From positions 62,001-126,000 of the forward strand of contig JALCQR010000004.1 in assembly GCA_022651385.1 (NCBI GenBank): 64,000 nucleotides of DNA. The letters are read 5' to 3'. Origin of the DNA: Clostridia bacterium. Lineage in GTDB: Bacteria > Bacillota > Clostridia > Lachnospirales > Anaerotignaceae. The notes under the pieces were generated by a model that saw nothing but the letters and a program-made list of their open reading frames with translations, did not search any database and was not told the origin of the DNA. The translations under genes and the position numbers were made by a program. Position 1 is the first letter of the stretch; every line of letters begins with the position of its first letter. Shown piece after piece: positions 46,087 to 49,853 of this stretch.

Positions 46087-46115
46087 TTGACTTATGACTT
46101 TATGTTTGATAATAT
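46087..46115 (+). promoter_or_regulatory. Promoter of the five-gene 46210-49802 operon
   Basis: TTGACT (46087-46092) and TAATAT (46110-46115) are 17 bp apart. In the leader, GTTCTTATATACGAAC (46141-46156) is a near-palindrome that could bind a regulator. The stretch 45894-46086 is AT-rich with no gene. Confidence 0.55.
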
Positions 46116-46209: not shown

Positions 46210-46590
46210 ATGAAATTAATGCACACAAAGTTACCGGAGTTTCTTAAAAAGATGAGGGTAGCAGCAAATGAAAGCGAATGTCCTAAGGAAATTACGATAA
46301 GAGGACTTGAAAATCTTACATCAGCTAAAATGCAGTCTCTTAGAACGGGAAGAATTGAGCACGCCGTAAGAGAAATGACTATGAAAGAAGGCGTAGACAG
46401 AATAGAATTTGTTGTTATGCCTCGTGTACCTGAGACTATGCATACAGTTATAATTAAGGGAATAGACAAAGAGGGCAATATTAAAAGTGCCATACTTGAG
46501 ATAGTAAATATACTTCATCCTACTGAAGAAGCTGAGCTTCTTGGATGCGATGATATTGATGACAGAAGACCGGCTATTGGAAGACACTAA
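46210..46590 (+). CDS. Conserved-looking small protein, first gene of the LarA-like operon
   Basis: A 126-aa protein starting at the ATG at 46210, 5 nt after GAAAGGGTGG; an upstream TTG gives a 13-residue extension without support. It is helical at the start (LPEFLKKMRVAANESE), beta-rich in the middle (RIEFVVMPRVPETMHTVIIKGI) and ends with HPTEEAELLGCDDIDDRRP. It has one Cys and no signal or membrane segment. I do not recognise it. Its place as first gene of a tight operon with an apparent multi-gene metabolic function suggests a subunit or small auxiliary protein. Confidence 0.6.
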   Translation: MKLMHTKLPEFLKKMRVAANESECPKEITIRGLENLTSAKMQSLRTGRIEHAVREMTMKEGVDRIEFVVMPRVPETMHTVIIKGIDKEGNIKSAILEIVNILHPTEEAELLGCDDIDDRRPAIGRH

Positions 46591-46617
46591 TTTATTATCT
46601 TGAGGAGGACGTTAAAA

Positions 46618-47637
46618 ATGAAACTTACTTATAAAATGATTCCGGAAGGAATGCTTGAGGGCAAATTTGTTCCTCTTAATATCGTTTTTATTGATTATAA
46701 AGAAGTAAAAGAAGCAGGCATTACACCTATGGAGGCTTTTCAGGCCGTTGCAAATACTATTGACGGTCCTGTTGGCATGAATATTTTTGACCAAGACGTT
46801 GTTACAACAACTTCCGACGGTGTTATGGTTGAAGGCACAGTAAGATTTATGGCGGCAGCCGACAGAGGCAAGATTAACAAAGACTTCGGTTATCTTGAAA
46901 TGGTTGAGATGCCTTATTCTGATGAGCTTATAAAAGAAGAGCCTCATCTTATACAGTGGAAGAAAAACTATCCTGGAAAGAAACTTTTCAGAGGTCCGGA
47001 CCCTGCTACAAAGAAAATACCTGTTCATAATGTATGTATTTCAGGACGTGCTTCAAACAACAACTCTGCAACGGAAATGATGAATATTGTTACAATGGAA
47101 GAAATTCTTCTCCCTATTCTCGGCCAGCAGCAGATAATGAGAAACGGTAAAGTTATACTTGGTCTTACAGGCGGCATTATTTCCGTTGGAATAGGTATGA
47201 TTATGCCTGAAATGTATGGACGTGTATTCCCTACAAGACAGTTCCCGGCTGGAGAAACAGCTCACGGAAGCGGAGTTTATGCACAGACACTTAAGGCTCA
47301 TATACCATGTATTGTAGCTGACAAATCTGTTCTTGCCGAAAATATAATTAAATGTTTTGAAGCAGGATGTATTCCGGGAAGAACGGTTGGAGGCTCACCT
47401 GCAGTGCTTTCAGTTGCAAAGCGCATGGGCGTAAAGATTGATATGGATAATATAACAGACAAGGCATATGAGGAACTTGCAAGCATAGGATGTACCAAAG
47501 AATGGATGAAAGAAAAAGTCGACATACTTACACCTGAGGAAATAATAGCACATGCTGACGATATTATTCCGGGAGTGGATGATGCAACAAAGTACAATGT
47601 ACCTGATCTTATAAAAGAATTTACAATAGAGGTCTGA
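46618..47637 (+). CDS. Unrecognised 339-aa protein of the LarA-like operon
   Basis: The start at 46618 lies 9 nt after GAGGAGG. The product is soluble. It has an N-terminal segment with VPLNIVFIDYKEVKEAG, a charged middle region (KKLFRGPDPATKKIPVHNV), then strongly glycine-patterned stretches: CISGRASNNNSATEMMNIV, GLTGGIISVGIGMIMPEMYG and IPGRTVGGSPAVLSVAKRMG. The last two look like phosphate- or nucleotide-binding loops. FPAGETAHGSGVYAQ contains a conserved-looking His. I cannot assign a family. It is the largest unknown in the operon and could be the main catalytic partner of the LarA-like protein. Confidence 0.6.
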   Translation: MKLTYKMIPEGMLEGKFVPLNIVFIDYKEVKEAGITPMEAFQAVANTIDGPVGMNIFDQDVVTTTSDGVMVEGTVRFMAAADRGKINKDFGYLEMVEMPYSDELIKEEPHLIQWKKNYPGKKLFRGPDPATKKIPVHNVCISGRASNNNSATEMMNIVTMEEILLPILGQQQIMRNGKVILGLTGGIISVGIGMIMPEMYGRVFPTRQFPAGETAHGSGVYAQTLKAHIPCIVADKSVLAENIIKCFEAGCIPGRTVGGSPAVLSVAKRMGVKIDMDNITDKAYEELASIGCTKEWMKEKVDILTPEEIIAHADDIIPGVDDATKYNVPDLIKEFTIEV

Positions 47638-47642
47638 TTTTA

Positions 47643-48017
47643 ATGGAAAAAAAAGATGAAGAAAACAGCGTAATTGTGCAGGTTGATAAAACAGTTGTAA
47701 AAGTTACCGGTATTGATGTTAAAGGACTTAATATACAGCAGCTTGAAAAAATACTTCTTGATAAACTTAAAAGCATGGTGCGTGTAATAGGTGTTACAGG
47801 CGAGTCTATTGAGATGGACGTATACGGAATAGATGAAGATGATATTCTGAGGGAAAAAGACGGCATAATTAAGGCAATCGCAACAGCCGACGGAATCACG
47901 CTTTCTGATTTAGCTCAGATTTCATCTGTTGAGAAGATTAAAAAAGTAGATTTTGATAAGATTCCGGAATATCATGAAGGCACTTGTATGAAGGAGAGAT
48001 GGCTGAATGTTCACTAA
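47643..48017 (+). CDS. Small acidic protein of the LarA-like operon
   Basis: A 124-aa acidic protein with no transmembrane segment. The first 70 residues look like an alpha/beta sandwich (VIVQVDKTVVKVTGIDVKGLN, then a helix, then MVRVIGVTGESIEMDVYGI). The C-terminal third is helical and contains one Cys (HEGTCMKERW). It starts 5 bp after the 339-aa gene and overlaps the next gene by 11 bp, so translation is coupled. The family is not recognised; a subunit or chaperone role is only a guess. Confidence 0.55.
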   Translation: MEKKDEENSVIVQVDKTVVKVTGIDVKGLNIQQLEKILLDKLKSMVRVIGVTGESIEMDVYGIDEDDILREKDGIIKAIATADGITLSDLAQISSVEKIKKVDFDKIPEYHEGTCMKERWLNVH

Positions 48018-48525
48018 AGCTGTTATAATTCCCACAGGTGATGAACTTAAAGCCGGAATTGTACTTGATACCGACAGCCCTATGATAATGCAGACTTTGC
48101 TTTCAATAAACGGCGGATGCGAGGTAAGAAGGATTGCTCCTGTTCTTGACAGACAGGAGCTTATTGAAAGCACCATTAAAAAGATGGCATCTCAAAATGA
48201 CCTTATTGTAATGATAGGCGGAAGCGGAGGCGGACACCGCTACAGCTCTACTCTCGGAAAAGATTTTACACATTCTTCACTTGAGGAAATACTTGAGGAA
48301 AAACATTCCTCAAAAATGTACGGGAAAAATGGTCATATGTGGTGCAAGCTTGTATGCGGAAAACTTGGGGATACACTTGTAATAAATGTCCCGGGGCCTT
48401 TTGATGAGGCAAAAGCTGCAATAGGCGCTTTCAAGCAAAAATATATAGAAAATGAAAATGACCTTAAGTCTATAAATACAGCTATGATGGAAGCTGTAAA
48501 GGCTAAATATAGTAATGTTTACTGA
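48007..48525 (+). CDS. MoCF/MogA-like (molybdopterin-binding fold) protein
   Basis: A 172-aa single-domain protein resembling MoaB/MogA. It shows an IPTGDELKAG-like start (the G-[DN]-E-[LI] block of MoeA/MogA), LIVMIGGSGGGHRYSS in place of the usual GGTG-x-x-x-x-D loop, and VINVPGPFDEAKAAI matching the family's final LPGxPxxxxxAF. The conserved Asp after the glycine loop is not obvious, so adenylyl transfer to molybdopterin is doubtful. In an operon without other molybdenum genes it may bind another nucleotide-like cofactor, for example during LarA-type cofactor handling. That last point is inference. Confidence 0.65.
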   Translation: MFTKAVIIPTGDELKAGIVLDTDSPMIMQTLLSINGGCEVRRIAPVLDRQELIESTIKKMASQNDLIVMIGGSGGGHRYSSTLGKDFTHSSLEEILEEKHSSKMYGKNGHMWCKLVCGKLGDTLVINVPGPFDEAKAAIGAFKQKYIENENDLKSINTAMMEAVKAKYSNVY

Positions 48526-48548
48526 TTCCACGAAGGAGTGAGTTTTTA

Positions 48549-49802
48549 ATGGGGTATCTTAATGAAAATGCGGTTTATCCAAAAATGTACCGCATTAAAC
48601 AGAAGTTCAACACTGAGAAAATTACGGATATAAATACCGAAGTTATAAAACAGCTCGATAGCATAGGTCTTAAAGACACAGTTAAAAGGGACGCTCATAT
48701 AGGCATAACATGCGGAAGCCGAGGCATAAACAACATACCAGTTATAATAAAAGCCGTTGTTGATTATGTAAAATCAATAGGCGCCGTGCCTTTTATAATA
48801 CCTGCTATGGGAAGCCACGGCGGCGCCGAAGCCGAAGGGCAGAAACATGTTTGTGAAAAATTTGGAGTAAGCGAAGAAGCAATGGGCTGCGAGATATGTT
48901 CATCAATGGATACGGTTGTGCTTGGACAGACTCCTGAAGGTGTAAACGTATATTTTGATAAAAATGCTTATGAGTCAGACGGGGTTATAATTGTAAACCG
49001 TGTAAAACGCCATACGGACTTTACGGCTAAAAACGAAAGCGGTTTGGTTAAAATGATTTCAGTAGGCCTCGGAAAACAAAAGGGCGCAAGCGCCATGCAT
49101 GATAATGGGCTTGGAAAAACAATTCCTGCCGCCGCAAAGGTTGCGATTAAAAAAGCACCTATAATAGCCGGACTTGCAATAGTTGAAAATGCAGCAGAAG
49201 ATACATGCGTGCTTAAGGCCGTAAAGCCTGAAAACTTCATTGAAGAAGACGCCAAGCTTCTTGAGCTTTCGAACTCTCTTGTTCCTTCGCTGCCTGTTGA
49301 TTATATAGACATACTTATAGTTAAAGAAATGGGCAAGCAGTACAGCGGAACAGGCATGGATACAAAAGTAATAGGCAGAATGAAAATTTTTGGCGAGAAA
49401 GAACCGACTTCACCAAGAATTAAAAAACTTGCCGTACTTCGCCTTTCATCTGCGTCATACGGAAATGCTCTCGGCATCGGCCTTGCGGACCTTACAGTAA
49501 AAAAACTTGTTGACAGCATTGATTATGAGGCCATGTATTCTAACCTTGTTACAACCACATTCCTTGAAAGAGGAAAAGTGCCGGTACATTTTGATACCGA
49601 AAAAGAAGTAATTGATGTGGCGTTAAGAACAATTGGAAATGTTAAGCCGGAAAATGCCAGAGTTATGATAATAGAAAATACTTTAAATATAGGCACTATG
49701 CTTGTTTCCGAAAGTATTTACAAAGATATAAAAAATAAGGTTGAACTTGTTGATGAGGATGTTAAAATTAAATTCAACAAAGACCTTGAGCTTGACGTGT
49801 AA
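48549..49802 (+). CDS. LarA-like (DUF2088) nickel-pincer-type racemase/epimerase homologue
   Basis: A 417-aa protein of the lactate-racemase superfamily. PAMGSHGGAEAEGQ corresponds to the catalytic-His loop. NRVKRHTDFTAKNESGLVKM carries a His and a Lys, and a second His (SAMHDNG) follows the Lys by 16 residues. That is the spacing of Lys184 and His200 in Lactobacillus plantarum LarA, which bind the nickel-pincer cofactor (NPN). It therefore probably uses NPN or a related cofactor to racemise a 2-hydroxy acid. No larB, larC or larE is nearby. It is the last gene of the operon, with AAGGAGTGAG before the start. Substrate unknown. Confidence 0.75.
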   Translation: MGYLNENAVYPKMYRIKQKFNTEKITDINTEVIKQLDSIGLKDTVKRDAHIGITCGSRGINNIPVIIKAVVDYVKSIGAVPFIIPAMGSHGGAEAEGQKHVCEKFGVSEEAMGCEICSSMDTVVLGQTPEGVNVYFDKNAYESDGVIIVNRVKRHTDFTAKNESGLVKMISVGLGKQKGASAMHDNGLGKTIPAAAKVAIKKAPIIAGLAIVENAAEDTCVLKAVKPENFIEEDAKLLELSNSLVPSLPVDYIDILIVKEMGKQYSGTGMDTKVIGRMKIFGEKEPTSPRIKKLAVLRLSSASYGNALGIGLADLTVKKLVDSIDYEAMYSNLVTTTFLERGKVPVHFDTEKEVIDVALRTIGNVKPENARVMIIENTLNIGTMLVSESIYKDIKNKVELVDEDVKIKFNKDLELDV

Positions 49803-49814
49803 CCCATCTATAAC

Positions 49815-49853
49815 AAAGTCCCCAAACATTTAAGTTTTGGGGACTTTATTTTT
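49815..49853 (+). terminator. Terminator of the LarA-like operon
   Basis: AAAGTCCCCAAAC pairs with GTTTTGGGGACTTT around a short loop, followed by ATTTTT. Confidence 0.85.

Follow-up and report, generated by a model that had tools for sequence, protein, structure and literature searches.

We analysed a candidate operon built around a LarA homologue in a 64-kb stretch of a Clostridia bacterium genome; this whole stretch of 64,000 nucleotides is called the window below. Its four uncharacterised partner proteins accompany the LarA homologue, and sometimes the cofactor-making genes, in dozens of anaerobes, an association that suggests a branch of nickel-pincer biochemistry not described before. 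Five co-directional genes, designated A to E, span 46210-49802 on the + strand, with intergenic distances from A to E of 27, 5, −11 (an overlap) and 23 bp. These coordinates confirmed the tight five-gene arrangement and the spacing described in a first-pass annotation of the sequence. The features of the locus are as follows.

46087..46115, + strand, promoter-like site TTGACT-17-TAATAT (consensus scan; putative)
46210..46590, + strand, gene A, 126 aa
46618..47637, + strand, gene B, 339 aa
47643..48017, + strand, gene C, 124 aa; related to the N-terminal region of a C-D fusion found in other genomes
48007..48525, + strand, gene D, 172 aa; MogA/CinA-type domain PF00994 with a GGSGGGHR motif and without the MogA Asp
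48549..49802, + strand, gene E, 417 aa; LarA homologue, nickel-pincer nucleotide (NPN) isomerase group 22
about 49814..49853, + strand, intrinsic terminator with hairpin and U-tail (folding dG −17.5 kcal/mol, z −4.2)

The annotation had assigned one promoter and one terminator to the operon. The terminator was borne out by its folding energy and is a strong one directly 3' of gene E, but the promoter was not, as promoter-like sites in the region were no commoner than chance (16 versus 12.6 ± 3.7 in shuffled sequences). Judging from their translations, the flanking genes are seemingly unrelated to the operon: an M16-type peptidase and a YgjP-like metalloprotein are encoded upstream, and a desulfoferrodoxin-like gene and a Crp-like regulator lie downstream.

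Gene E and the nickel-pincer synthesis genes

Gene E scored 506.9 bits against the NCBIfam model NF052515 (NPN isomerase group 22; cut-off 400) and 27.7 bits against Pfam Lar_N (cut-off 23.3). E is thus not new in itself, since it falls in a named though uncharacterised group of LarA homologues. Lactate racemase is the enzyme in which the NPN cofactor was first found (Desguin 2015, as cited in PMC12611868), and no member of group 22 was among the 13 LarA homologues assayed in 2020 (Desguin 2020, PMC7583248). The window's genome contains five group-22 genes and two further LarA-type genes.

We aligned the profile of E with LarA reference proteins taken from other genomes. H90, H155, K168 and H184 of E aligned with H108, H174, K184 and H200 of LarA, and hhalign gave E-values of 0.0028 and 0.0008 to canonical LarA proteins. 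H155, K168 and H184 are invariant, and H90 is nearly so, in 21 group members. With the residue roles given in PMC12611868, E keeps both catalytic histidines, the cofactor-anchoring lysine and the Ni-ligand histidine of LarA in this profile alignment. The 16-residue spacing between a Lys and a His, which had been noticed in the sequence as that of the LarA cofactor ligands, is therefore real (K168/H184) and holds in alignment with true LarA proteins; since all four residues are kept, the alignment did not refute the assignment. From its sequence, E is probably a nickel-pincer-dependent hydroxyacid isomerase.

E could instead be a DUF362-type protein and no NPN enzyme, which would leave the operon unrelated to nickel-pincer chemistry. 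It also scores above the Pfam DUF362 cut-off (26.6 bits versus 24), and PDB searches with E, both single-sequence and profile, returned no strong LarA match. The NF052515 score and the four invariant or nearly invariant LarA active-site residues argue against this explanation, as does the presence of LarB in most genomes that carry the gene set and beside the set in two of them. We consider it very unlikely.

LarB, LarC and LarE are encoded neither in the operon nor elsewhere in the 64-kb window, and A to D did not match the models of these three proteins. Gene content of the window's own genome was established by searches. The search for these genes outside the window, proposed in the first-pass annotation, found larE-larB-larC1-larC2 together on contig C7 (LarB, 300 bits; LarE, 291 bits), which rules out an organism without NPN synthesis. 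The absence of larB, larC and larE from the operon, remarked on in that annotation, was correct but is no puzzle: the genome has these genes, and two other genomes carry them next to the set. One of these (G307) carries on one strand larB-larC-x-larE-sodium symporter-A-B-D-E-NadD, and the other (G301) carries, likewise on one strand, E..A-B-C-D-F-PFOR-x-larB-larC-larE, where PFOR is pyruvate:ferredoxin oxidoreductase and F is a protein described below. A cluster encoding a C-D fusion adjoins larC-larB-larE in G300. In G205 another such cluster is found close to larB-larC, and here the fusion is directly followed by a LarA-like gene. The link of the operon to nickel-pincer biology is well supported.

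Distribution of the gene set

A search with B recovered 26 loci, nearly all of them in Clostridia, including Anaerotignum, Sedimentibacter and Fusibacter; one is in a metagenome-assembled genome labelled Deltaproteobacteria. Sedimentibacter acidaminivorans DSM 24004 is a carrier that can be cultured. Wherever A and B were both found in a locus they are neighbours, and the same holds for C and D. D was present in 25 of the 25 B-carrying genomes and group-22 E in 24 of them, figures that show association and not a clean probability, because these genomes were picked by the presence of B and many are related. LarB was above the cut-off in 21 of the 25, and one more has LarB in broken frames. The families thus co-occur in other genomes, far beyond the window.

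The window's genome has three A-B sets, namely the A-B-C-D-E operon described here, an A-B-E set, and a second A-B-C-D-E set accompanied by a divergent NadD paralogue. Several diverged types of the operon exist, and this genome contains two of them. A PrdR-like sigma-54 activator is encoded upstream of the A-B-E copy (L007:11634-13046), and L019 and L024 have a related activator ahead of A-B-E. Where C-D occur apart from A-B, they lie next to another E gene in the inspected genomes (e.g. L097, L098 and L100).

Among 291 genomes sampled across the class, B was found in two, C in the same two and E in 20. C gave one further weak match in this sample, which is a C-D fusion. The set is thus confined to a small fraction of genomes, and many close relatives have an A-B-E operon without C-D, as might be expected if the five genes were an accidental or lineage-specific grouping with no shared function. 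Such a grouping is already contradicted by the co-occurrence data: D is in every genome with B and E in nearly every one, the operon has diverged into several types, two within a single genome, and the gene distances from A to E correlate, with r of 0.88-0.95 inflated by kinship. We regard it as extremely improbable.

Genes A to D and their neighbours

D matched PF00994 at 1e-14. Alignment to Cnx1 placed Tyr79 of D at the Asp of the MogA/Cnx1 'PRDVT' motif, so D is indeed the MogA-like protein lacking the usual Asp that had been recognised from the sequence. Within the D family this position is Tyr, Phe or His, and D scored far below every NCBIfam MogA/MoaB/CinA equivalog cut-off. A, B and C had no credible match in Pfam or NCBIfam.

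Other Clostridia encode a 303-aa protein in which a C-like part is joined to a D-like part, in the order of the operon genes. Of the two, the match to D is certain (hhalign, 8.5e-17); the match to C is weaker (7e-4 in the genome search and 0.0056 in hhalign) but has the support of gene order. The fusion clusters encode a NadC-like phosphoribosyltransferase (a quinolinate phosphoribosyltransferase paralogue), a ferredoxin and a 480-aa protein. In L060-L063 and L102 they contain a varying mix of genes for a BenE-type transporter, 2-oxopent-4-enoate hydratase, acetaldehyde dehydrogenase and aldolase, the NadC-like gene, an M24 peptidase-like gene and, in L061, UbiD. These clusters are a putative anaerobic catabolic pathway.

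The 480-aa family adjoins the fusion at L063:8183-9646 and L102:2598-4031, and also in L060, L061 and L062. It has no match in Pfam or NCBIfam. Its profile is weakly similar to that of E (hhalign, 0.0026), and its invariant Lys206/His222 pair has the 16-residue spacing of Lys184/His200 in LarA; it may be an undescribed LarA-like family. At L055:3201-4499, a LarA-like protein encoded straight after the C-D fusion has GGSGMVIPG in place of the LarA lysine motif GGxK and keeps the Asn-His that follows this position.

In the window's own genome a second nadD gene, encoding a NadD paralogue, lies next to the set, and such a paralogue also borders the set in L022, L025, L037, L098, L099 and L100. 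NadD makes nicotinic acid adenine dinucleotide (NaAD), the substrate of LarB. Protein F, which has about 200 aa and no family match, is fused to a NadD-type nicotinate-nucleotide adenylyltransferase at L019:6719-7981 and L024:6429-7664, and elsewhere is a separate gene after D. NaAD is described as an NPN precursor (PMC12611868). The NadD context of the set and the NadC-like context of the fusion thus place C-D twice with pyridine-nucleotide enzymes and NPN genes.

PDB sequence searches with A and B gave nothing usable. Both proteins carry many invariant polar residues; in B these are D58, D82, H110, H137, R144, N147-149, E153, E162, E198, R202, H216, K226 and K236. AlphaFold gave a confident model of B (predicted local distance difference test score (pLDDT), 93.4) and a fair model of A (pLDDT, 85.8), and fold searches with the two models found no significant PDB match. 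For A, the hits at E 0.02 were SnoaL-like fragments and fragments of histidine-kinase ATPases, and neither fold is claimed. The best rows for B were DapF/PrpF-type isomerases (VIA Z 3.9 over 135 residues with a root-mean-square deviation of 4.4; Foldseek E >0.02). This superfamily leads the VIA re-ranking, yet Z is below 4 and the fold is not claimed for B. Comparison of B with LarA and with the 480-aa family by hhalign was negative.

Recurrent neighbours of the set are TRAP transporters, a sodium/solute symporter (SSS), GntR regulators and PFOR, and the set is also found with acyl-CoA dehydrogenase and Etf genes. Group-22 genes with no adjacent A-D stand beside galactarate/altronate dehydratase-like genes at L008:6124-7299, L010:12924-14087 and L037:1928-3088, a hint at sugar-acid or sulfolactate-type substrates of those E paralogues. 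The transporters, GntR regulators, PFOR and dehydratase-like neighbours together suggest the import and fermentation of a hydroxylated organic acid.

Proposed pathway and comparison with known systems

We propose that the operon belongs to an NPN-dependent organic-acid pathway, in which C-D, with NadD, handle a nicotinate-derived cofactor for E, and A-B form a two-protein enzyme. We give this proposal about an even chance of being right, the roles of the individual genes being what we infer from their sequences and neighbours. E would invert the alpha-carbon of a 2-hydroxyacid by the proton-coupled hydride transfer of LarA. C-D would bind or process a nicotinate-derived nucleotide, either NaAD as the LarB substrate or NPN itself, and would thus make, deliver or repair the cofactor of group-22 E, helped in many genomes by the dedicated NadD paralogue. 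A-B would act on the substrate of E or on its product. In several relatives, the pathway would be fed by TRAP or sodium symporters and would end at PFOR.

The candidate undescribed system around a LarA-type enzyme that the first-pass annotation had put forward holds up in comparative genomics. Its suggestion that the MogA-like protein and the 339-aa protein handle the cofactor or the substrate fared differently for the two proteins. D fits such a role by its linkage to larB/larC/larE and to the NadD and NadC paralogues, as far as can be deduced from gene context, but nothing was found that points to B as a cofactor handler.

The same evidence can be read as a new branch in which C-D, the NadD/NadC paralogues and F make a modified NPN (for example, an adenylylated one) or load or repair it, with A-B a new type of enzyme; we think this unlikely. 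More weight is due to the possibility that A to D are the catalytic core of a catabolic complex for one organic acid, that E supplies the required stereoisomer and that the D fold has been recruited for another small molecule. The many invariant polar residues of A and B are what enzymes would have, the structural search with B ranked PrpF/DapF-type isomerases highest, albeit below significance, and the set sits with transporters, PFOR, acyl-CoA dehydrogenase and Etf genes. That C-D fusions occur alongside BenE, 2-oxopent-4-enoate hydratase and aldolase in a catabolic cluster also agrees with such a complex, and G300 carries A-D without group-22 E. However, C-D without A-B still adjoin E genes in L097, L098 and L100, and a catabolic complex would not predict the repeated linkage of C-D and the fusion to NadD/NadC paralogues and to larB/larC/larE. 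We hold this explanation to be possible, with the chances somewhat against it.

Several points weigh against the proposed NPN-dependent pathway with C-D as cofactor handlers. Three B-carrying draft genomes show no LarB, and G300 has A-D but no group-22 E. Since 18 of the 20 E-carrying genomes in the class sample are without B, E in general does not need A-D. The choice of genomes by B and their kinship inflate the co-occurrence, and NadD beside the set could serve plain NAD supply. Neither A nor B has a predicted fold with a significant match, and the roles of these two are predicted from their neighbours; for all five proteins, the roles are predictions from sequence and gene context.

Loading LarA homologues with NPN is known to be difficult (PMC11796402, PMC12611868). 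Five families without described function, A, B, C, D and F, co-occur with one LarA group and stand beside larB/larC/larE in two genomes. They are thus specific candidates for proteins still missing from cofactor handling or from the pathway, and the partner families give a testable route to the function of the uncharacterised LarA group 22. Neither NPN partners nor partners of the molybdopterin type turned up in our literature searches, and the set matched no characterised pathway in the databases and literature searched, as the first-pass annotation had anticipated.

We compared the operon with the known systems that it resembles. E is like the LarA superfamily (PMC7583248, PMC11770544) in its profile score and in the two catalytic histidines, the cofactor lysine and the Ni-binding histidine, whereas partners such as A-D are described in none of the papers found, the supplementary context table of PMC7583248 lying outside that search. 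The DapF/PrpF/PhzF fold provides the best structural neighbours of B, with both its N- and C-terminal ends within the aligned range, but B has neither a sequence match to these proteins nor an invariant Cys. D has PF00994 in common with MogA/Cnx1G and the CinA N-domain, and its conserved GGSGGG loop sits at the corresponding position; it differs from MogA/Cnx1G in the missing Asp, in its scores below the equivalog cut-offs and in lying among NPN and pyridine-nucleotide genes. None of A, B, C, D and F is LarB, LarC or LarE or a described part of their pathway, whereas the genes of that pathway are present in the window's genome and adjoin the set in some relatives, and the NadD paralogue would make the substrate of LarB.

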